A stretch of DNA of 64,000 bases from Brachyhypopomus gauderio (lineage: Eukaryota; Chordata; Actinopteri; Gymnotiformes; Hypopomidae), in contig NC_135223.1 in the NCBI RefSeq assembly GCF_052324685.1, positions 11,754,266-11,818,265 of the forward strand, given 5' to 3'. The translations under genes and the position numbers were made by a program. Below the pieces are notes generated by a model that saw nothing but the letters and a program-made list of their open reading frames with translations, did not search any database and was not told the DNA's origin. This document shows, piece after piece, positions 30,499-53,689 of this stretch (position 1 is its first letter; each line of letters starts with the position of its first letter).

Positions 30499-31723
30499 CA
30501 CTCATCGGCCACTTTATTAGGTACTCCTTGCTAGTTCCGGGTTGGACCCCCTTTTGCCTTCAGAACTGCTTTTATCCTTCGTGGCATAGATTCAACAAGG
30601 TACAGGAAACATTCCTCAGAGAGTTCGGTCCATGTTGATATGATAGCATCATGCAGTTGCTGCAGATTTGTCGGCTGCACATCCATGATGTGAGTCTCCC
30701 GTTCCACCACATCCCAAAGGTGTTCTAATGAATTGAGATCTGGTGACTGGAGTCCATTTGAGTACAGTGAACTCATTGTGTTCAAGAAACCAGTCTGAGA
30801 TGATTCACGCTTTATGACATGGCACGTTATCCTGCTGGAAGTAGACATCCGAAGATACACTGGTCATAAAAGGATGGACAAGGTCAGCAACAATACTCGG
30901 GTAGGCTGTGGTGTTAACACGATGCTCAATTGGTAATAATGTTTAATAATAAAACTTTATAAATAAAAATAATAAAGTTTATTTGTATAGTGCTATTCAC
31001 AACACATGTCAAATCTTGTATTGATCAATATTGAGCCTGTGTGAATTGTAGCCTCAGTTTCCTGTTCTTACCTGACAGGAGTGGCACCCGGTGTAATCTT
31101 CAGCTGCTGTAGCCCGTGTTCAGAGATGCTCTTTGGCCTGCCTCAGTTGTAACAACTGGTTATTTGAGTTACTATTGTCATTCTATCGGCTCGAACCAGT
31201 CTGGCCACTGACCTCTTGCATCAACACGACATTTGTGCTCACAGAACTGCCGCTCACTGGATATTTTCTCATTTTCTGACCATTCTCTGTAAACCCTAGA
31301 GATGGTTGTGCGTGAAAATCCCAGTAGATCAACAGTTTCTGAAATACACAGACCAGCCTGTCTGGCACCAACAACCATGCCACATTCAAAGTCCCTTAAA
31401 TCGCCTTTCTTCCTCAGTCTGATACTCTGAACTGCAGCAGATTTTCTTGGCCATGTCTACATGTCTAAATACATTGAGTTGCTGCCATGTGATTGGCTGA
31501 TTCGACATTTGCGGCAATGAACAGTTGGATAGGTGCATCCAGGGCCGGAGTGGGACACTTTTTCAGCCCGGGAGTTTCATGCCCAAATCCGGCCCAAAAT
31601 TATTTTTCCCTCCCAATCGGCCCAAACTAGAGACTGACATGAGCCGGCCCATCGGGAATCCTCCCGAATCTCCCGATTAGCCACTCCGGCTCTGGGTGCA
31701 TCTAATAAAGTGGCCGGTGAGTG
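30499..31723 (-). mobile_element. Tc1-like transposon copy, degenerate, with nested MITE
   Basis: Ends CACTCATCGGCCACTTTATT... and ...AATAAAGTGGCCGGTGAGTG are inverted repeats; TA precedes the left end. Minus-strand reading gives Tc1 transposase pieces: the HTH part (GFSRTTISRVYREWSE, near 31260-31330) and the C-terminal part (SLEHLWDVVERE, near 30690-30730; MPRRIKAVLKAKGGPTR, near 30535-30590). The middle is lost or replaced, partly by a short piece of a fish repeat (about 30950-31000). A 155-bp MITE is inserted near its left transposase end (31540-31694). The copy is not functional. Confidence 0.85.
31540..31694. mobile_element. 155-bp hAT-type MITE, copy 1 (inside Tc1-like element)
   Basis: Ends CAGGGCCGGAGTGG and CCACTCCGGCTCTG are inverted repeats. 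A perfect 8-bp target duplication GGTGCATC flanks it (31532-31539, 31695-31702). Near-identical copies lie at 43127 and 47551. Confidence 0.92.
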
Positions 31724-33092: not shown

Positions 33093-36000
33093 ATGTCTAC
33101 ATCAAAAATCTATATATGGCTTATTTTGGGTGAGTAAAATGACAAAGTGATTATAAAGTAAATTTGTTTTTAAACATACGATTGTGCAAATGTGAATGCA
33201 TTTATGCCTCTAACTTTTATTAGATATTAAAAAGTTTTATTATAGATACTATTATTATTATTATGTTGTTGTTGTTATTATTTCTGAGGTTTAATTCCAT
33301 TCAAGATGTGTTGCTTTTTTGAAAGAGTGCATACACATCTTGTCCTTGCTAAACTTGTTCCCTCTATATATCTCTATGTATTAGTTATCAAAATGTCATC
33401 ATTCAACATGCAGAAACAAACATGCTATGGTAAATACTGATGACACTGATAGAGCGATTGCTTCATCGGAAGGAAAGCCACGCCCTTCGGGGACTAAAAC
33501 AGCAACATTTGCAAGGGAGTCAGTGGGAAATTGCAGGATAATGTGTCTTGAAACAGCCCATGCATGGCTAGTCAACAATGATTTTTTTTGGCTTTGTTTC
33601 GCATCTTAAAATCAAGTAAATCCTTAGTAAGAGTTTTTAATTTTATTTGTGTAGAACAACATGCAACAGCTTTTTGCCATATTTGAAATTTAGTTTAAAG
33701 CCAATAAATGTAAGTGTGCAATGCAAATCAATGGAAAGTGCAAATCTGTATACCTCCATGGTCTGGGTGTGGCTAGCTAACTTTTGTCTATTTAGCTCTT
33801 TGTGCAGCCAAAGGTGGATGTGAAGTGTTCTACAAGAAAAGAGGACAGAATGTGATCATGAGCTGTGGAGATGCAGTCCAGAACTACGATGTGGAGTGGA
33901 AACATAACGAGAGGCTAATTTTACGTATTCTGGGCAAATCTGGACGAAGGATAAAAGGTATCAACTGTGCTGTTCGATTACTTCTCAACCTTTGTTTCCA
34001 TGATGGGACTTAATTAAACAATGTGCTAACTTTTCTATTTAGATTTGTAAAGTTCACTTTTGTGATCTGCTTTTGATTGGTAAGGGATGTCTGGTGTTAC
34101 TAAGAAAGCAAAGATAACAGGAACCGTCATGGAGATTCCCTCATTGGGCACTGAGGACGCTGGTGTCTACAGCTGTACTGGATACAACAAAAAAGGGGAA
34201 AAAACCACGATGCAACATACACTGCATATTGTGTCAGGTGAAACGAAGAGTCATTTCATAGGACCTAAAAAAAAACACGTTCCCGAAATGGGAGGAAAGG
34301 CCGAGAGCAATGTGTCAGAATGTGTTACAGTTTGAAACGATTGGGTGGTGCTAATGTGCTAGTTATTTTGCATTAAACGTTCCTTTTTTAATGTCAACAG
34401 ACTAGACTTGTGTCTAAGCCAATGTTTAATTTTCATCCAGATAGAAAACATAGAAAGCTACCATTTTGTCATCATCTGTGAACAAGGCAAGGTAGTATAT
34501 GTATGGTCTTCTCTCGCTCTCTCTCTCCCTCCCTTCCTCCCCCCCTCTCTTCCTCTCCCTCCTCACTAGTGATTACTAGCCCTGCAGATGTTGTACTCTA
34601 TTCCACTGAGGTAACCCTGACATGTGACATTCCTGAAGACTCAGCGGTAGAAGTTCAGTGGTTGAGGCCACCAGAGCTTAAACCTTTCAGACACCGTGGC
34701 AAGACTGTGACACTGAATTCTGTGAACGTGACTGATGCTGGACACTGGGCCTGTCAGATCAAAGATGAAATGGGGGTGGAATTAAAGATATCAGTGGACA
34801 TCACTGTTGTCGGTTTGTTTCCATAGTAGTACAACTAATGCTTACTTTTATGACACTGATTCTTTTCTTCTTGTAAAAAGTATTTTTGGTATTTATTCCT
34901 TTATAACCAAAGACAACAATAATGACATTGTGTAATAATAGTACTTAATATTACTATTACTAATATTTTAATATCTTTTGTTTTGAACTATGAATGTTTT
35001 GGTCATTCCATTGCACATTTCAGGTCCTCTTAAGTCTGAAGACATTGTAGTTCTTCCAGGCGATACAGCACAGCTGCCATGTTCCCTGCCTAACGCAAGC
35101 CGTCTACCTATAATTGGAGGAGGTTGGGTTCGTGATCCCCCTAATGGCACTGAGCTTCTAAATTTAGGAACACACGGAAAGAACCTACACTGGATTAGCA
35201 ACATGTCTAGAATCATGCTGAGTGAACAACATCCCAGCACAAACTTTGGTGTGATGCTGACAAATGTGAGAACCAGTGAGGCTTGTTCATATTTGATTTG
35301 CTGTCTGTTTGGTTTTGCACTGTAAAATGAATTTCATCCTTGGGCTTCAGTTGTGTGTGTTCCACCTGCCTGCTGTCTGCTTCTCTCAGGTGCAGTCTGC
35401 TGATGCTGGTGTGTATATGTGCACTCTGACGTTTGAGGGTGGAAATAATCTGAGTGCAAGGTTGAATCTGAAGGTCGAGGATGAAAGCAATGCTGATGTT
35501 CCTGGTAAGCACAATAGCTGGTGACTTTTAGACCAGCTGACTGTCAATGAATCTTCATCAGTATCATATATATGGGCCAAAGTTACACAAGGATACCTTC
35601 TAGTCAACAGCATATTCAGCCAACCCTCCTATGTTCTCAGACTATGTTCCCACACTAGACTTACAGTTCACCTTTGAGTACCTAAATCTTCTGTGGTCCT
35701 TTGTTGACAACAGTATCACCATGTCATGCACTGGAGCTCCCTCTCCTAGTAAGCAGTTTTTATATGGATTATCCAAGTTAATATGAGTGGTCAATACTGG
35801 CAGTTTAAATAGATTATGGTTAAAGAAAACCATCTTAGAAATGTGAGTAAAGCAAGACTTTAGAACCACCATTGTTAATGAAAGGGGTATATTCTCACGG
35901 TCAGAACCGGCCCTTATTAAAGTACAAGTGTTGAAGATTAGTGGGGAGGTACCAGAGAGAAGAGGTAGGCAAAACTTGACATGAAAAATATGGATGGAGC

Positions 36001-37646
36001 AACCTGTACCAGAAAAATGTATAACAAGAGGTTCTTCAAGAGAATAATGCCGTTCATGCTAGCAGAAAACATTTGAGAAAGCCTTGCAGATCCATTGTCT
36101 TCTCAAGGTTGATTGCTTGTTAATGAGTTTCTTCAGACAGACCTATCACCATACTGTGCTATAGCTGAATGCAGACCTCTCAGGCATCCAGGTTGCTGCA
36201 GAAAGAGATTCAAGTTGCAGGAAGTGTATGCAGCCACCTAGAATGACTGCAAAGTGCAGACAATATCTACAACTCCAACATGCCTGTTAAGCAGTGGTTG
36301 ATGTTACCAAATCTGTGACCAAATAGGGAAAACCTACTCTTGTGCTGTAAGGTGATAGCAAAGACAGAGGTCTAGGAATCACCTTGATATCAAATGCTGG
36401 GCTTCTAGGCAGATTTGGAAGATTACATACTCCATAAGCCATCCATCTGCTACTACCAAGTATGTTTTGGATTTTATTAATTTGCAAATGTCAGTAGTGA
36501 TTTTTGTAACAGGAAACATGAAAACCTCAAAACATCAGCCTCCAAATCGTGACTGAAATTTCCCATGCCGATTCAAACCTTGTTGCTCGTTTCCTTTTGA
36601 TATGTTTTTTTAATGCATTGTTGAATGTAGCACAGGAAACAACATCACCTGTTGTGTTGTGCCTATCTGTTTATGTCTGTAAATACTACACCATTTTTAT
36701 TGCTATCCCAATTTTCTCTTCAATTAGATTTATTCACACAACCTACCACATTTTAAACACAAATAACACCCTTAATAACAATAATAATCCCCAACAATTT
36801 ATTTCATACATAATGAAGTAATATTTCTGCTCTACTCTTCAGATCCTCTGGTGATTACAGCTTCTTCTGGGGGCACTGCAGAACTTCCATGTTCACACCC
36901 TGGTGCTGGTCATCCACGTGTAGTAGGAGGGAGGTGGACTCACAAACATCAGGATCGTTTTCAGTTCCCTGTCTTAATGAGCACACAATCCAAAGGTTTA
37001 CACTGGAATGGCACAGGCGTCCTTATGTCGAAAGTCACGTTCACCGACAAGCAACTTAACACCAACTTTAACGTGACCCTGCATAACGTGAGAATCAGTC
37101 TTGGTCCATTGTCAGCGTGGTGTATATCTTCAGAACATATGGGATTCTTCCTTTCCAGGTTTGTGAGTCAGCTGCTTGGTCTCTCTCTGGGTCTCTCTCA
37201 GGTGGGATCTGCTGACACTGGTGTGTATGTGTGCAGTCTGATGTTTGAGGATGGAAAGATTCTGAATACTAAACTGAATCTGAACGTGGTTGAGGAGGAT
37301 GTTCAGGTTGCTCCTGGTAAGCAGCTAGGTCCTTCAAACATTGCTCTGAGTTGCTTGCCAGTGAATATTAAGCAATATCACGCAGTTTAATAAAGAATAT
37401 GTTGTCGTTTAATTTTCATTTAACCTTGTACTCTGTGTGCGTGTGTGTGCTGATGCTACTCATCAGATGTAAGGCAAACTTCATTCCTCATGGAATTTTG
37501 GCAGAGGCCTTTGCTGGGTGTATCAATGTGGGTGTGGGCTGCAGCAGCTGGAGGCATCATCCTTCTGAGTGCTGTAGTCATTGTCATTGTGCTGATTCAG
37601 AAGAAAAGGAAGAAGAGCAAGAACAAACTCATGAGGGTGAGTGAAT

Positions 37647-37688
<42 letters not shown>

Positions 37689-40559
37689 AAGCTCTATATT
37701 AGACACATCTTTCTTAATAGTAGTGCACCCTCATCACTGGCTTCAGTTTCTATGCAAATGACCAGTGCTGACTGAACATGCAGGCAGCCGGCCACTCTCA
37801 ACACAGCATTTTAAACATCATTTGTTATTTTTCAATATTCCAACATGACACTAACGCCTGCAGCTTGAATGTGTAAATATTACCTGTCACTAACCACATA
37901 ATACCTGATCAAAACTCATTACATTGCATGTTTAAGCCATATAGCAGAGACTACAGGCTAACTTGATTATCTTACTAAACTGCAGTGTTCAAATAACCAC
38001 CAAAAACCTCGTTACAAAAGCCTTTAACAATGTTAGTTATGCTCATCAGGAGGGCAATGGGAATCAATGAATACATGCTCATAAAAGTGTTAAAATTGAC
38101 TATTAAATTATTGTAAGTTAGATAAAACCAACAATTACTGATATGTTACTCTTCTGGAGAAAGCTTTTCAATCACAGTCAATCACAAAACTAGGAGCCAT
38201 CAGCCAATAGCATTCATTGACAGACATGGCCATGAGCCCGCCCTCAAACTGTTAACACAGAGCACAGAGCAGCTCAAAGTATTGCAGTTGGCCAGTGAGA
38301 ACAGCTCACATCACCAGAGAAAAATACAAAGAATGCCAAACATAGCTTGAGTACATATGATGACATACAGCACAGTTCTGCTTTTTGTTCTGCTTTTGGT
38401 TCTCGTGAGAGGGATTTATACACACATTTACAGTTTTCACACTGTGTTTTTGTGTCCTCTATTTGTGACATTAATGTGATTGCATAAACATCACCTAAAT
38501 ATCAGAATGACTAAATAGTGCATTTTTTCTTGTATCTGTCTTCATTTTTGCTAAAGATTGCATGTGAAATAAAAGGTAATTGAGCCTTTTCTTCCTCAGC
38601 AAAAAAGGGAAACAACTAAAGTCCATTCAACAACTACCAACACCCAGCAATTACTGCGGATGCAACATGAGGTACCATTTCATATCTGTTATCACAATAC
38701 ATGAGGTACCATTCTCTTATCTGTTATTATGAATACATGAGGTACCATTCTCTTATCTGTTATTATGAATACATGAGGTACCATTCTCTTATCTGTTATT
38801 ATGAATACATGAGGTACCATTCTCTTATCTGTTATCATGAATACATGAGGTACCATTCTCTTATCTGTTATCATGAATACATGAGGTACCATTCTCTTAT
38901 CTGTTATCATGAATACATGAGGTACCATTCTCTTATCTGTTATCATGAATACATGAGGTACCATTCTCTTATCTGTTATCATGAATACATGAGGTACCAT
39001 TCTCTTATCTGTTATCATGAATACATGAGGTACCATTCTCTTATCTGTTATCATGAATACATGAGGTACCATTCTCTTATCTGTTATCATGAATACATGA
39101 GGTACCATTCTCTTATCTGTTATCATGAATACATGAGGTACCATTCTCTTATCTGTTATCATGAATACATGAGGTACCATTCTCTTATCTGTTATCATGA
39201 ATACATGAGGTACCATTCTCTTATCTGTTATCATGAATACATGAGGTACCATTCTCTTATCTGTTATTATGAATACATGAGGTACCATTCTCTTATCTGT
39301 TATCATGAATACATGAGGTACCATTCTCTTATCTGTTATCATGAATACATGAGGTACCATTCTCTTATCTGTTATCATGAATACATGAGGTACCATTCTC
39401 TTATCTGTTATCATGAATACATGAGGTACCATTCTCTTATCTGTTATCATGAATACATGAGGTACCATTCTCTTATCTGTTATTATGAATACATGAGGTA
39501 CCATTCTCTTATCTGTTATCATGAATACATGAGGTACCATTCTCTTATCTGTTATCATGAATACATGAGGTACCATTCTCTTATCTGTTATCATGAATAC
39601 ATGAGGTACCATTCTCTTATCTGTTATCATGAATACATGAGGTACCATTCTCTTATCTGTTATCATGAATACATGAGGTACCATTCTCTTATCTGTTATC
39701 ATGAATACATGAGGTACCATTCTCTTATCTGTTATTATGAATACATGAGGTACCATTCTCTTATCTGTTATCATGAATACATGAGGTACCATTCTCTTAT
39801 CTGTTATCATGAATACATGAGGTACCATTCTCTTATCTGTTATCATGAATACATGAGGTACCATTCTCTTATCTGTTATCATGAATACATGAGGTACCAT
39901 TCTCTTATCTGTTATTATGAATACATGAGGTACCATTCTCTTATCTGTTATCATGAATACATGAGGTACCATTCTCTTATCTGTTATCATGAATACATGA
40001 GGTACCATTCTCTTATCTGTTATCATGAATACATGAGGTACCATTCTCTTATCTGTTATTATGAATACATGAGGTACCATTCTCTTATCTGTTATTATGA
40101 ATACATGAGGTACCATTCTCTTATCTGTTATCATGAATACATGAGGTACCATTCTCTTATCTTTAATCACAATGTTTTTCTAACTATAACGATTATATAT
40201 ATTTAATGGTGTTAGACCCACATATACATCATATATGTCCTCCCAGTCTATGGTATGTGATTTACGCTTAATGGTAATGTAACTGGAAAATAACCCTAAT
40301 GTGTTTTGTTTGATTTCATAATAATTTCTGTAAAACACTACATTTCATTTGCAGCATACTGTTTCATTATGCCTTCAACAAGTGCCCTATACAATGGTCC
40401 CATTGTGTACCAGTATGTACTTTGACCATTTTCTTCCAAATGTTTTCTCCCTAAAAGACTGAGAGGCAGCCACGCCCAGGACGAAGACAGAGGCCAGCTC
40501 CTCCTCCCAGGACACAATACCATAATGTAAGACAGGGTCAGAGAACTAATAATTGTTAA
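33093..40559 (+). CDS. cd4-1: CD4-1-like T-cell co-receptor, four Ig domains
   Basis: CD4 binds MHC class II and recruits Lck to the T-cell receptor. Eleven coding exons: 33093-33129, 33796-33957, 34085-34237, 34570-34812, 35024-35265, 35390-35504, 36843-37087, 37202-37316, 37467-37636, 38600-38671, 40458-40559; 551 residues. Exon 1 gives the signal peptide (MSTSKIYIWLIL). D1 (to about 117) is split by an intron, as in mammalian CD4, with Cys in IMSCGD and VYSCTGY. D2 is one exon (TLTCDI, WACQIKD). D3 and D4 are each split by a phase-0 intron (LPCSLPN with YMCTL; LPCSHPG with YVCSL). A transmembrane helix (about 459-481) is followed by KKRKKSK. In the phase set by exon 9, exon 10 does not read as the CxC motif, which lies one frame over; exon 11 returns to the family frame (TERQPRPGRR). 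Calling it CD4 rather than LAG3 rests on the split D1, the cd4-2 neighbour and synteny. Confidence 0.85.
37649..37685. repeat. CA microsatellite
   Basis: A CA run twelve bases after the exon 9 donor of cd4-1. Confidence 0.9.
38667..40164. repeat. 36-bp minisatellite, 40 full units, in cd4-1 intron 10
   Basis: Forty units of exactly 36 bp fill 38701-40140, with a partial unit after and a 34-bp diverged unit (38667-38700) before. Units start ATGAGGTACCATTCTCTTAT and are almost identical; the main variant is C or T in TTATYATG. The diverged first unit begins inside exon 10: its ATGAG are the last five exon bases and its GTACCA is the splice donor. The array is open in one frame on each strand, because 36 is a multiple of three and the unit lacks stops there; this is not coding evidence. 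Confidence 0.97.
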
Positions 40560-43126: not shown

Positions 43127-43281
43127 CAGGGCCGGAGTGGGACACTTTTTCAGCCCGGGAGTTTCATGCCCAAATCCGGCCCAAAATTATTTTCCCCTCC
43201 CAATCGGCCCAAACTAGAGACTGACATGAGCCGGCCCATCGGGAATCCTCCCGAATCTCCCGATCAGCCACTCCGGCTCTG
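43127..43281. mobile_element. 155-bp hAT-type MITE, copy 2
   Basis: Same ends as the copy at 31540, flanked by a perfect 8-bp duplication ACTCTAGC (43119-43126, 43282-43289). Almost identical to the other two copies, so a recent insertion. Confidence 0.92.
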
Positions 43282-43320
43282 ACTCTAGCCCCAAATACTG
43301 AAACTGTCTAACAGTGTAAT

Positions 43321-43810
43321 GTGTTTGTGTATGTGTCTTGTGTGTTTGTATATGGACTTTATCTCCCATTACAATTCTGCACATGACAATTCAAAAGATT
43401 TAAACATTTGGTGAATGTCCTATATGGGGGTAAAACTGTGTTGCCATTGCATCCTCTGCCCTTCTGATCATGCTGTTTGTCATCATCATAATTGTTCATC
43501 GCAGGAATAAGCAAATGTGGCTAAGGGCAAGGGTAAAGTGTATTCTAAAGACACAGTGAGTGAGTGGGAGAGTGTGTGTGTGTATGTATGAGAGAGAAAA
43601 ATAAAACGTGAGAGAAAGTGAGTCACTAGGAAAACACATTGATGAGATTTTTCAGCATCTTTCTTTGATGAATCTTTGCGAGATTAGCAACAGCGTGATT
43701 TTGTTAATGTATTTTTCTGAAATTTTATAGACAAAAATAAAAATTTGATTTGAACCAATCTACATATTATTAGGAAAATATGAATTCTCTGAATTTTCTG
43801 GTTGTATAAC
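43321..43810 (+). pseudogene. Relic of a third CD4 (cd4-2-like) gene: transmembrane exon and 3' UTR
   Basis: 43321-43545 follows the cd4-2 region 50130-50375 closely: the lead-in TATGGACTTTATCTCCCATT, then the transmembrane exon (CTTCTGATCATGCTG, CATCGCAGGAATAA). 43610-43810 follows the cd4-2 3' UTR (CACTAGGAAAACA; ACATATTATTAG). The part between, which in cd4-2 holds the CxC exon and the last exon, is missing, and the transmembrane exon has lost its reading frame. No Ig-domain exons were found upstream. Confidence 0.75.
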
Positions 43811-47550: not shown

Positions 47551-47705
47551 CAGGGCCGGAGTGGGACACTTTTTCAGCCCGGGAGTTTCATGCCCAAATC
47601 CGGCCCAAAATTATTTTCCCCTTCCAATCGGCCCAAACTAGAGACTGACATGAGCCGGCCCATCGGGAATCCTCCCGAATCTCCCGATTAGCCACTCCGG
47701 CTATG
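47551..47705. mobile_element. 155-bp hAT-type MITE, copy 3 (cd4-2 intron 1)
   Basis: Same ends as the other copies, except the last bases read CTATG. A perfect 8-bp duplication GAAAAGTG flanks it (47543-47550, 47706-47713). Confidence 0.92.
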
Positions 47706-48292
47706 GAAAAGTGTACATATTGATACAACTATACATTTGATATCCGATTGTTTAATGTGTTATGATTGTATATGGAATATTTGGATCCTGAATAAAAAAT
47801 TACTTTGACTTGGCAGTTTGTTCAGACAGGAACATGCCAATACATCTGAAAATCTGATATGCTCCTATAATTCATTGTTTGGAATCATTTAGTACTCTTG
47901 TGAAATTATTTAGTAATAAAGTGCTTGAGCATCACATGCTGCATGGTTTACTTTTTTTCAAATCATGATTTGTTGTACTATTCTGTCAAATATAATTGCT
48001 CATGCTCCCATAAGAGAGATGAGAGATATGAATAGAAAATGCTTTTGTAGCATTTTTTTTTTGCTTTTGTATTTCCCTTTAGAGCAATATGAAAATTATA
48101 TATTGAAATTTTAAAATGGGTTTTGTGGTGTTTACAGAGAAAACACAATTTGTGTTTATTTTTGTAAATCAAAATAATTAATAATTAAATAGTTTATCTA
48201 TTTACCAATTATCAAATGTCTTTTGTAATGCTTTATAATTTAAAGTCTTCTTTTCTTATCTACAAAATGTAACAGAGCTTGAATGGACAGAA

Positions 48293-49356
48293 ATGTCCGT
48301 GACTCAAACACATTTTTGGATAAGTTTGGGTGAGTACAAAAATGATGCTTCAAACAGAATAGAGCCAATGATCGCTGGACGATTCTTCCAAAATATAAAG
48401 TCTTTATGGTGACTCCAACTAGCTATACGTTTCTCTTTTTTCAGCTCTTTGTCTAGCTACAGGGGGATCTGAGAACATCTATGAGAAAAGTGGAAATGCT
48501 GTGACCTTGGACTGTGGCGATGCATTATCGAATAAGGATATAGACTGGAAACACAATGATCAAGTCATCACAAAATATTACAGCAAAAGTGGAAGAATTT
48601 CCAAAGGTTTCAGGCATTATCTTTATTACTTCTTATTTGCTGTGACATGAAACATTTGGTACTAATGCAGAGTAACAACGGCCAAATAACATATGAATTT
48701 AAGTGAAGGCACAGTATAAAAGTAGTAACCCTACCTGCATGATTTTCATTTTAAAGGTAGTGCTGCTGTTACTTCAAAGGCAAAATTAATTGCACCAAAC
48801 CTGCAGATTTCCTCATTGGACCCCCAAAACAGTGGGCTCTACAGCTGTACTGGATATGACAACAAGAACAGCAAAATCACAAAGCAATATTCACTAAGTA
48901 TTGTGTCAGGTGAGAGAAAACAAAAAGATCTTTTTGGAGGACAGAAAGAAACAGAGGGATGTGGCAGCTAGAGAGTCATGATAGAAAATGAATTTTCATC
49001 CTGTAAATTTCATCCTGCAACTGTAATTACATTTTACTCTGTATGGCAATTTAAACTTTCTGCCTGTTCTTTCCCCCAGTCACGGGAGGCACTGCAGCTG
49101 TGGTCCACTCCGAGTTAACCCTGACGTGTGACATTGCTGGGGACTCTCAAGCAGTCGTTCAGTGGCTGCGACCAGATTCTAAACTATTTGCACCTGGAAA
49201 AGAACTTAACATAAAATCTGTCTCCCTGGATGATGCTGGAAAGTGGACCTGTCAGATCAAAGATAAAGAGCAGGAGAAAAAAAAGATAGAAGTGGACATC
49301 ACCGTTGTTGGTTTGTTTATTGATATGCATTTCTATTGCTCTTTCAAACATGTAGA

Positions 49357-49432
<76 letters not shown>

Positions 49433-50410
49433 TTATATATAAATAATATATAACAATATATATAGTTTTAAGTTTTACCTGCATTTTCTAAGAAAGCCAC
49501 ATTTACACTATCTACCTCGTTATAACTGAACAAAGACAACAATAAAAGCAAAGTTTATATTGAATTTAATAAATGATTTTAAAATGCTATTCTGATCTTC
49601 AGGTTTTCTGGAGTCGTCAAAGGAACTGTCGGTTAATCTAGGGGGCGATGTAGAGCTACCATGTTGCCTCTCCAGTCAAAGCAGCCTTCGTGTAGTAGAA
49701 GGGGGTTGGGCGCGAGACCCCCCCACTAACTACCTCCTCACCTTAGACACAATGACCGGCCTTCGCTGGAATAGCACCCAGGCTAAAACATCTAGGTTCA
49801 AATTCCAAACTCAGACCCTCAGCACCAACTTCAGTGTGAGGCTGACAAATGTGAGATCCATGGTTTGCTATTACAGAGTGTTTTGGGTTCTTGTTTTCCA
49901 GCTGTGCTCTAGTTGTGTGTGTTCCACCTGTCTGCTCTCTGCTTCTCTCAGGTGCAGTCTGCTGATGCTGGTGTGTATATGTGCACTCTGATGTTTGAGG
50001 GTAAAAAAACTCTGAGTGTAAGCTTGACACTGAAGGTTGTGGGAAAGGCTGTCTCTGGTATGCAGTAAGCAAAGTATTACTTATTATATTCAGAGTCACC
50101 AACATAATACATGAAATTCTAACAATAATCTGTGTTTGTGTGTTTTTGTGTGTATGTGTTTGTGTATGGACTTTATCTCCCATTAATTTTCTGCCCATGG
50201 CAATTCAACAAGTAATTCCACAAGGCAAAACATTTTGGGAGATGTCTGTAATGGGGGTGAGTTTACAGGTCTGGGTTGGCATAGTAACAGCCTCTGTCCT
50301 TCTGATCATGCTGATTGTCATCATTGTGATTATTCACCGCAGGAATAAACGAATGAAGGTAAGAAAAGGTCAAAGAAAATTAGAAACAGAGAGTGAGAGA
50401 GTGAGAGAGT

Positions 50411-50451
<41 letters not shown>

Positions 50452-50728
50452 CTTGAATGTGAGAGTGAGTGAGTGAGAGAGACTGAGTGAAACAGCGACA
50501 GAGAGAGAGAGATTGAGTGTGTGTGTGAGAGAGAGAGAATGAGGGAACAAAAAAGACAGAGGTTCATGAAATCTTTTTTCTTTTTCAGAGGAAGGTAAGA
50601 AAACTAAAATCTATGCGGGAGCCTCTTACACCCAGGAATTACTGCCAGTGTAATAGGTAAGTTTCAGTTTCCTCTTTTTCCTTTTTTTTTTATTTTTCCT
50701 CTATTTTTTTTTATTTTAAATATTCCTA

Positions 50729-50804
<76 letters not shown>

Positions 50805-50948
50805 TTCTTACTATAAATATTAATTAATTTGGGTAGCTTGAACCATGTACTGCTTTCTCCCCAAAGGACTGAGAGACAACCCTGTGCAGGCAGGAGAGAG
50901 AAGCCACCTCCTCTTCCAAGGACACAGTACTATCGTGTTGACACTTAA
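48293..50948 (+). CDS. cd4-2: CD4-2-like T-cell co-receptor, three Ig domains
   Basis: Nine coding exons: 48293-48329, 48445-48606, 48757-48909, 49080-49310, 49603-49850, 49952-50057, 50213-50358, 50589-50656, 50867-50948; 410 residues, all phases consistent. Signal peptide MSVTQTHFWISL. D1 (to about 117) is split by an intron with Cys in TLDCGD and LYSCTGY. D2 (118-194) has TLTCDI and WTCQIKD. D3 (195-312) is split by a phase-0 intron with ELPCCL and VYMCTLMF. The transmembrane helix is about 332-353, followed by HRRNKRMK. The cytoplasmic exon reads TPRNYCQCNR: C380 and C382 are the CxC zinc-clasp motif by which CD4 binds Lck. Exons 1-3 have the same lengths (37, 162, 153) as in cd4-1, showing a tandem duplication. 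The three-domain form fits teleost CD4-2, as described in catfish. Confidence 0.9.
49359..49429. repeat. TA microsatellite
   Basis: TA run in cd4-2 intron 4. Confidence 0.95.
50393..50450. repeat. GA microsatellite
   Basis: Imperfect GA run in cd4-2 intron 7; GAGT/GAGA-rich sequence continues to about 50540. Confidence 0.9.
50733..50800. repeat. TA microsatellite
   Basis: TA run in the last cd4-2 intron. Confidence 0.95.
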
Positions 50949-53689
50949 TCACTTTAGTGAGACAGGGTCAGAGAATGGAGGAACAGTAAGATGTAGAGTG
51001 GGGTTGTGTTTGTATAGTCACTAGGAAAACATGTTGATGAGCAGATTTATCAATTCATCTTTCTGTGAATAATCTTTGATAGCTTAGTGTGATAGCAGCA
51101 ATCATATCTATGCGCTTACAATACAAAGCGTACATCACAGTACAAAGCATACATCACAGTACAGATTGCTAGAGAGCTTTGCCAAAATTGTTCAATCTTT
51201 CAAACATTGCAATGTAAATAATATTTTTTTCTGAAATTGTATGAACCAAAGGTAACATAATGATAGATTTGCATATATTTACATATTATTAGAAAAATGT
51301 GAATTTTTAGAATTCTACTGTTGTGTTGTGTAAGAAATGTTTAATCTTGACTATGCATATTTTAATTTGATACTGACTGATCTAATGAACATGTTACAGT
51401 TTATGTCTTCTGTTACAATTAAACCACTAAAATAGATAATTTGTGAGTGAATGTGCATGTGTGTTTCTCCACATTTTCACTAGCCCATTTTATATCACAT
51501 TGCATAGCTGTATGGGGACTGATAGATCCACACTACTGTCCATGCACTCACATGTACAGCTGTGAAGTGGATTATCACAGTACATAGTGCATCGAGCACA
51601 CATGGGCTACAGGACAGCATGGAGTAGAGGTGAAAAAGTCACATCAATAACAGATCAGCCTAACTTACTGTATACGCCATGTTCCACTGCACGTACACTA
51701 GGTGTATAGGGGCATACTGAAGGTGACCTGAGTGTGGTGGAGGCTAAGAATGAGAAATACATTGTAAAGACACTGTAAAAATACTGTATGGATGTTCTAC
51801 GGTGTGCACCCGTAGAGTGTAAGGTTAACCTCTAAAAATGTTTAGGCTTGTGTAGCTATTACCAATAAGTGACATTATTTTGTATCAATTAAGGGTCATT
51901 TAGTGACTACCCAAACTAAACTGAAAGACATACAGAGAGAGTAAATGAGAGTATTTTATAGCAGGACCCAGGAGCAGGTCTTTATAGTGTTAGAGGTTAA
52001 AATGCTAGGGGTGGTCTGGCGGGGTGGAGACTTTGGTAGAAAAGTGTAGAGAAAGCAGCAAAGACAAAATATTGACAGAGGCAGTGAGGCAGAGAGAAGC
52101 AGATGACACTGTTTCCTGTGTGTGCTGCAGTGACATCGGAGGATGTTAATGTGAGTGTAGGTCACTGAGCTTCTACTGGAGGAAACACCTTGTGTCCTCA
52201 CTACTGTAAGTACAACGTTTTATGCTAGACAATATTTTAGCATGCTTCTCTTCATAATATATATCAACATTGTGTGGGTCAAGGTTTTAATTAATTTTGA
52301 TGATTTTGTTGCTGGTTATCCAAAACAACTGCTGAAAGGAAGCGATGTCCATCAGTTAGATTAAGAGACTAACTTTTTAAAGTTGCTGTTGTCTATAAGG
52401 CATAGTTAAGCTGCCTGTATTACTATAGAAAAAGCTACTTGATAGCATATATAGAATCTTGTTTGGTTCTGATGTTTGTATTGGCAATTGTGAAGGGCTA
52501 TATTCATTAGTGAGATAATAAAAATAATTAGATGAATAATAATGAATAAATGATGAATAAAGATTAATCATTCAATGAATATTACAATTGCATGTAATTA
52601 TGTAGGTAGTATACATTTTAACATATGTCACACAACATGATCATTTTTGCATACTGTTAATGTGTGTAGGCCTGAACATGGTTAGTAGAATATGAACATG
52701 TACCACTCTGATACAAAAATGATTCTTGTATGAATGAATAATCCACCCTGATTCAGTCCTGGAATGTTGTGTGTATATTTATTAGTTGACAATGATATTT
52801 CAAAATGAGAATTATTTTAGGTATTCCATATTTTAGGAGCATACCACTGGAAGTCAATGAATTGCTTATTGAATTGACGTGAAAATATTATTGACATACA
52901 GTTGTACATCTAAATACAATGGAAAGCTGATACTGTAGTAAACGAGTAGTGTAGTTGTATCTGTAAGTTGAGACTGATGTTTACATAGTTCACAGTGACC
53001 CTTAAAAATACCTGTACATGTCCCGATCTCAAAGTTTATTGGGTACATTCCACACAAAGGGAGCTGAGACTGAAGGAGTCATTTGGCATTGCATGGTTCA
53101 AGCATCAAATAATTATTCCCCACTTCAGCTTCATCATGATGACACCTGAATTACTCTGTCATTTGTAATCTTACGTTTCTTTTCTGTTATTAATTAGGTA
53201 ATTCTAAATAATACAAAATGTACTAATATGTTTACATTTTTATGCATAAAACAAAATGTGTAGTTACAGACGTTCTGAATAATTCATGGATTATGGACTA
53301 TTTACATAAGGGAAACACACATCCTTTAATATGTTTATTTGAAGGTACTGTGGCAACATACACCTACAAATAACATTCTCATCATGCAACTTGAGATATG
53401 TACTTTTGTGTAAGGCCGTTGCTGTTGAATATCGTTATGTTGAAATACAAAGAAACCTCTCAGTGCCATAAAAAGTGCAGGCCAAAAACCACCTACAGCA
53501 TGCTAGGTACATCGGTGGCCAATGATGGTTGAGTGTGAAGGGTGTACTAAAATGCAGTTGGATTGACTAAAAGGTTTCACCGGTATCCCACACATGATTT
53601 GAAAAAAGTTTGACATTTTACTGATAAATTAATCTTTTAATATACCTTGTAAAATATAGAATATCTCAGTATACTGACGTTAGGGAGTC
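50949..53689. other. cd4-2 3' UTR and intergenic spacer
   Basis: The first few hundred bases are the cd4-2 3' UTR; ATTAAA at 51418-51423 may be its polyadenylation signal. A possible 5' exon ends near 52205 (CACT then GTAAGTAC), but nothing coding follows. The rest shows nothing. Confidence 0.35.

Follow-up and report, generated by a model that had tools for sequence, protein, structure and literature searches.

A third CD4 gene in the Brachyhypopomus gauderio genome, of the CD4-2 lineage and with its CxC exon predicted to be read out of frame

The CxC motif of the CD4 tail and the CxxC motif of Lck form a zinc clasp (PMC10768021), and a CD4-like gene whose CxC-exon homologue is read in another frame raises two questions: which CD4 is it, and can its product still dock Lck? 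Such a gene lies in the window, i.e., the whole 64,000-nucleotide stretch analysed (C13:11754266–11818265, from a genome assembled into 840 contigs with 797 Mb in total). Both CD4-like genes of the window, gene 1 (33093–40559) and gene 2 (48293–50948), each on the plus strand, were rebuilt exon by exon. An earlier note on this DNA had labelled gene 1 as CD4-1.

From its predicted signal exon to the stop, the frame of gene 1 is open over 1656 nt including the stop codon, or 551 residues. The start/signal exon (MSTSKIYIWLIL, 33093–33129, 37 nt, phase 0 to 1) was picked among candidates by its length and its TGG|GTGAGT donor, both of which match those of gene 2, and the joined frame is open. It is followed by domain D1 (33796–34237), formed by exons 33796–33957 and 34085–34237; D2 (34570–34812), of the C2 type with the WxC motif (WAC); D3 (35024–35504), of the V type, formed by exons 35024–35265 and 35390–35504; a further V domain in the place of D4 (36843–37316; exons 36843–37087 and 37202–37316), which has YVC and not WxC; and the transmembrane exon (exon 9, 37467–37636). 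The tail is completed by the former CxC exon, exon 10 (38600–38671, 72 nt; acceptor 11.5 bits, donor 2.5 bits, all splice-site scores here being in bits from an approximate weight matrix), and by the last exon, exon 11 (40458–40559, TERQPRPGRRQRPAPPPRTQYHNVRQGQRTNNC and the stop), the acceptor of which is displaced by one base.

CD4 differs from LAG-3 by an internal phase-1 intron in D1 and by several exons encoding the tail after the transmembrane segment (PMC10768021). Gene 1 has both: its first 37 and 162 nt bring the frame to phase 1 inside D1, and exons 10 and 11 follow the transmembrane exon. When the ectodomain was compared with solved structures, CD4 chains matched D1–D2 (best 2.1e-9) and LAG-3 chains matched D3 (best 1.7e-11); since an antibody heavy chain ranked first and 1599 sequences reached E 1, these matches indicate a CD4/LAG-3-like Ig protein and nothing further.

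The divergence of CD4-1 and CD4-2 has been dated to the origin of ray-finned fishes, and CD4-1 has the domain order V-C2-V-C2 with WxC in both D2 and D4 (PMC10768021). The order in gene 1 is V-C2-V-V, D4 being a copy of D3: it is identical to D3 of the same gene in 47 out of 115 positions (z 19.6) and to D3 of gene 2 in 45 out of 113 (z 20.2), whereas its similarity to the two D2 domains amounts to z 3.7 and 4.5; it also matches the Pfam V-set profile over nearly the full length (5.3e-10), and it is split between two exons in the same way as D3. Gene 1 is 48–54% identical to gene 2 in D1–D3 (50/104 positions, or 48%, in D1; 41/76, or 54%, in D2; 56/113, or 50%, in D3), with dS 0.66 and dN 0.39 over the three domains, and 21–27% identical to the CD4-1 gene predicted downstream. 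In the transmembrane exon, identity between the two genes falls to 31% (15/48), far below that of D1–D3. The D1–D3 identity, the split D3 with the same intron, and the dS value place gene 1 in the CD4-2 lineage as far as the genes of this genome are concerned. The C-terminal motif of CD4-1 in ray-finned fish, P(K/Q)P(K/R)(A/G)FY(H/K/R) (PMC10768021), is absent from gene 1, which ends in PPPRTQYHN..., and is of no help here, since its exact form is missing from the local CD4-1 model too, making it a weak criterion taken alone; as an unspliced DNA pattern it had no matches in the whole genome, and its reversed control had one.

The CD4-1 gene is modelled just past the window end, at L022:2090–8877 (window-equivalent 66024–72811). 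An earlier regular-expression scan of the flanks missed it, and it was found by profile search through D4 (E 7.9e-6) and D3 (2.9e-5), D2 reaching only 0.086 and D1 not being found. The model has the V-C2-V-C2 order, WIC in D2, WKC in D4, D3 encoded by one exon, and an in-frame CxC exon (TRFCCCK, where CxC reads CCC) running from phase 0 to 2 like that of gene 2. In the matching D1–D3 domains it is 19–30% identical to genes 1 and 2, and its D4 is similar to the two D2 domains (z 8.2 and 8.5) and hardly so to D4 of gene 1 (z 2.2). As D1 was not found by the profile and is barely alike to D1 of gene 1 (z 2.1), the identification rests on the layout, the WxC motifs, and the tail. The predicted last exon of the model (NTQPGQKKQRLFSC...) does not contain P(K/Q)P(K/R)(A/G)FY, and the donor of its transmembrane exon scores low, 1.4 bits. 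A search of the genome with the Pfam CD4 tail profile PF12104, the control for which gave matches in three out of 14 unrelated genomes, yielded four matches, all below the cut-off and with short surroundings that were not CD4-like. One more V-set match, at C13:12158269, was rejected as a CD4 candidate, as it belongs to a cluster of repeated V-set exons (C13:12158–12162 kb, L033–L035, ~340 kb downstream), which we take to be of the B7/butyrophilin type.

Gene 1 thus resembles the CD4-1 model in having four Ig domains and a multi-exon tail and differs from it in the domain order, in D4 (WKC in CD4-1), in D3 (one exon in CD4-1), and in the CxC exon, which is in frame in CD4-1 (FCCCK). With canonical CD4-2, for which gene 2 was compared, it shares the D1–D3 sequence, the exon layout, the CxC-exon homology, and the last exon, whereas canonical CD4-2 (gene 2; also channel catfish and zebrafish) is V-C2-V, and gene 1 adds the second D3-type domain and has the CxC exon out of frame. 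The label given in the earlier note had to be abandoned: the D3-like D4 with YVC, the 48–54% identity to gene 2, and the separate gene in CD4-1 order with an in-frame CxC predicted downstream rule out gene 1 as CD4-1. Judged by these sequence comparisons, gene 1 belongs to the CD4-2 lineage and adds a third CD4 gene to CD4-2 and CD4-1.

To the second question, the frame of exon 10 is central. The exon 9 donor, AGG|GTGAGT at 37636, leaves phase 0, and exon 10, flanked by ttcctcag on the acceptor side and by gtacca on the donor side, in this phase reads QKRETTKVHSTTTNTQQLLRMQHE, i.e., TNTQQLLRMQHE (QKRETTK...LLRMQHE); the CxC reading KKGKQLKSIQQLPTPSNYCGCNM, ending in TPSNYCGCNM, begins one base further on. 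The earlier description of exon 10 as a CxC-exon homologue read one frame off is hence confirmed, as is the entry in phase 0, and with the strong acceptor gene 1 has no in-frame Cx(C/H) tail of the kind found in Lck-coupled CD4. No other CxC exon was seen in gene 1: a scan of the plus strand of 33093–40559, which misses CxC without a preceding Y, F, or H, gave a sole YCxC reading, at 38652. Searched against the 797-Mb genome, the exon 10 stretch gave a single match at E ≤ 0.001. As the CxC exons of gene 2 (50589–50656, 68 nt) and of CD4-1 both run from phase 0 to 2, the phase 0 to 0 of the gene 1 exon is derived. The stretch with the A run is unlike that of gene 2 (CAAAAAAGGG vs. AGGAAGG), and gene 2 cannot show which base is extra, so that the added A proposed in the earlier note finds no confirmation there.

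Such a shift could be an error of the assembly or of base calling at the A run, exon 10 in reality keeping the CxC frame and the acceptor shift altering the last exon only. Runs of six A are prone to indel errors, the CD4-2 last exon varies among fishes (PMC10768021), and the past selection on the CxC frame described below would suit this explanation as well. On the other hand, of the 15 coding homopolymers of at least five bases listed in genes 1 and 2 (the gene 1 signal exon excluded), the 14 besides the exon 10 run keep the frame, and so do all five of the others that are at least six bases long; with the 551-residue frame otherwise open, this makes a base-calling error unlikely. Moreover, the assembly in 840 pieces, the 24-Mb size of the piece considered here, and the spanning of a 1.5-kb minisatellite suggest long reads, and a CxC tail would carry a foreign C-terminus, the family C-terminus being lost. 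The previously expressed view that a simple sequencing error is improbable also stands in that the family arrangement can be restored only by two separate changes. The reasoning from two offsetting changes proved weaker than claimed, since exon 10 has two shifted frames, one of which is stop-free by chance, and since exon 11 in phase 0 restores the frame upon exon 10 skipping whatever exon 10 holds. Overall, we regard an error at the A run as unlikely; the CxC loss could be such an error or the allele of one individual.

Exon 11, which reads TERQPRPGRR, begins at 40458 directly behind ctaaaAG, while its counterpart in gene 2 (50867–50948) has the acceptor ccaaAG|G at 50867. Comparison of these sites bears out the proposal that the gene 1 acceptor lies one base further in than that of CD4-2 and that the family frame is resumed there, the shift being caused by a substitution. 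Gene 1 also does not have the ~20 bases that hold the gene 2 stop, and its C-terminus continues into sequence common to the 3′ UTR of gene 2. The acceptor-like sites 40511 (10.0 bits) and 40355 (8.1 bits) outscore the modelled exon 11 acceptor (5.8 bits), and so the C-terminus may itself vary; acceptor 40355, if used, would swap it out, according to the sequence read by eye.

As exon 11 begins in phase 0 after the one-base acceptor shift, exon 10 may be skipped in frame, giving the predicted tail LMR|TERQPRPGRR..., in which CxC is absent; in gene 2, the CxC exon of 68 nt could not be skipped without a shift of the frame. Inclusion of exon 10 via its first donor and skipping of exon 10 are both predicted to produce tails that share one C-terminus and lack CxC. 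Since the acceptor shift keeps the C-terminus in either case, no insertion in exon 10 is needed to explain it. The main tail of gene 1 is, in this prediction, devoid of CxC.

The 3′ end of exon 10 coincides with the start of a 36-bp minisatellite (38665–40169, 41.9 units according to TRF), the first seven bases of the repeat being the last seven of the exon. The 5′ splice-site sequence ATGAG|GTACCATT is present in 42 copies, with the first spacing of 34 bases and the other 40 spacings of 36. The minisatellite also carries open frames on opposite strands, 511 codons on the plus strand (38671–40206) and 495 codons on the minus strand (38692–40179), which is explained by the 36-bp unit being equal to 12 codons. 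The exon 10 donor scores 2.5 bits vs. 11.0 for the donor of the gene 2 CxC exon; since even lower scores (−0.1, 1.9, and 2.1) occur in three out of 16 other donors scored in genes 1 and 2, the low score alone does not predict exon 10 skipping. The RNA structure around exon 10 is unremarkable (z 0.11).

The multiplied donor allows one to ask whether the CxC tail is retained by alternative splicing, as the earlier note had suggested. Of the nine AG sites in 38500–38672, only 38622 leads into the CxC frame. As for the exon 9 donor, which scores 10.0 bits, the eight other GT sites in 37560–37720 reach at most 1.4. Six acceptor/donor combinations were tried: the three that use acceptor 38622 contain CxC, and the three that use the strong acceptor do not; with the normal acceptor and the second or third donor, the frame stops within the repeat. 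The only combination with both CxC and the retained C-terminus is acceptor 38622 with the second minisatellite donor, 38705, which would place SIQQLPTPSNYCGCNMRYHFISVITIHE before TERQPRPGRR. Because of the phase change introduced by the 34-base first spacing, this 84-nt exon has no stop and joins in frame at either end; donors 38671 and 38705 score equally, and past selection on the CxC frame is also consistent with this form. However, acceptor 38622, at −6.7 bits, is not preceded by a pyrimidine tract, a strong AG (11.5 bits) stands 22 bases upstream of it, and chance alone would bring about one third of such combinations into frame. Thus, a CxC tail is possible via acceptor 38622, the case for it is weak, and we consider retention of CxC by alternative splicing very unlikely. 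A broader possibility, drawing on the 42 equal donors, the out-of-step first unit, and the shifted last-exon acceptor, is that the minisatellite made Lck coupling of the duplicated CD4-2 splicing-controlled, with uncoupled (exon 10 included or skipped), truncated, and rare CxC tails tuned by the repeat length; to this, too, we give a very low probability.

The CxC frame was compared with gene 2 over 22 of the 23 whole codons of gene 1, the extra ATG being omitted. The sequences share 11 out of 22 residues and differ at 24 nucleotides, distributed over codon positions 1, 2, and 3 as 3, 7, and 14, respectively, an excess at the third position (P 0.0016 under random placement); 12 differences are synonymous and 12 nonsynonymous, and the synonymous distance is saturated. 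The amino acid identity itself, a weaker test, is not significant upon column shuffling (1594 out of 20000 shuffles reach 11/22). In exon 11, the codon-position test is not significant (0.11), and the identity test is (529 out of 20000 reach 16/24). According to these patterns, selection probably acted on the CxC frame during much of the period after the duplication, and thus either the CxC loss is recent or CxC is kept in a rare isoform; the selected frame would fit continuing CxC use as well, and two sequences cannot separate recent loss from occasional use.

The neighbourhood of gene 1 bears on a further explanation. Gene 2 is a canonical V-C2-V CD4-2 with an open frame and an in-frame CxC, the acceptor of its transmembrane exon, at 50213, being uncertain. 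Between the two genes lies a relic of a further CD4-2 copy (43294–43795), which matches the transmembrane-exon region and the 3′ side of gene 2 (71.5% identity to 50106–50411, 79% to 51016–51087, and 73% to 51219–51314) and does not have the ~560 bases that hold the CxC and last exons. With a relic adjoining it, with dN/dS ~0.6 over D1–D3 relative to gene 2, indicating fast protein evolution, with changes in the tail, and with a repeat within an exon, gene 1 might itself be a decaying pseudogene, open by chance. Against this, the start, both D1 exons, D2–D4, the transmembrane exon, and the stop are open over the whole 1656 nt, and dN is lower than dS in all six stretches compared between genes 1 and 2 (D1, D2, D3, the transmembrane exon, exon 10 in the CxC frame, and exon 11); we consider decay unlikely, in about the same degree as the sequencing error or slightly more so. 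A 155-base element occurs in the region in three copies ~98% identical to each other (31540–31695, 43127–43281, and 47551–47706), one of which directly precedes the relic and another of which lies upstream of gene 2; it may be a mobile element situated close to the points of duplication.

The explanation that we favour, and hold to be probable, is that gene 1 is an Lck-uncoupled CD4-2-lineage duplicate, the CxC exon of which was disabled. A local tandem duplication would have been followed by the copying of D3 within gene 1, yielding V-C2-V-V; a one-base shift near the start of exon 10 would have disabled the CxC exon; the minisatellite would have overrun the 3′ end of exon 10, leaving a low-scoring 5′ splice site in 42 copies; and the one-base move of the exon 11 acceptor to phase 0 would allow this exon to join either exon 10, through its first donor, or exon 9 directly. 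The order of these events and the splice form used are our suggestion. The product would be a membrane receptor with CD4-like D1–D2, its tail being basic next to the membrane and ending in the old C-terminus. As the tail would have no CxC zinc clasp, the receptor is expected to bind its ligand without recruiting Lck and may serve alongside CD4-1 and canonical CD4-2 as a decoy or modulator.

CD4-2 duplicates without the motif have been described in two other fishes. Zebrafish CD4-2.2 has five Ig domains, D4 and D5 apparently duplicated from D1 and D2, and no intracellular region (PMC10768021; PMC4470515; PMC5073357), and its transcript is enriched in CD4-1+ T cells (PMC4470515; PMC5073357). In sterlet CD4-2f, the second cysteine is replaced by phenylalanine, turning CxC into CxF (PMC10768021). 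Gene 1 is similar to zebrafish CD4-2.2 as a third, non-canonical CD4-2-lineage gene without the Lck motif, beside CD4-1 and CD4-2.1 in that species, and differs from it in having V-C2-V-V domains and in retaining the membrane anchor and the tail. Likewise, it is similar to CD4-2f of the sterlet sturgeon as a duplicate CD4-2 with a disabled CxC; there a motif residue was replaced, whereas gene 1 combines changes of frame and splicing with a minisatellite. In the partially surveyed literature, including PMC6323851, PMC11426453, and PMC10362645, these were the only CD4-2 duplicates without CxC, and no report of the present case was found.

Our data do not show clasp loss in CD4-1 itself, a result that would have been the greater surprise. 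Gene 1 is rather a further example of a known trend than a new system, its unusual feature being the repeat-laden splice site. If the proposed explanation is true, it would be the third case, by a third route, of a CD4-2 duplicate losing its Lck dock, after CD4-2.2 and CD4-2f. Three such cases would suggest that CD4 receptors without Lck coupling have repeatedly been selected for or tolerated, perhaps as decoys for MHC class II.
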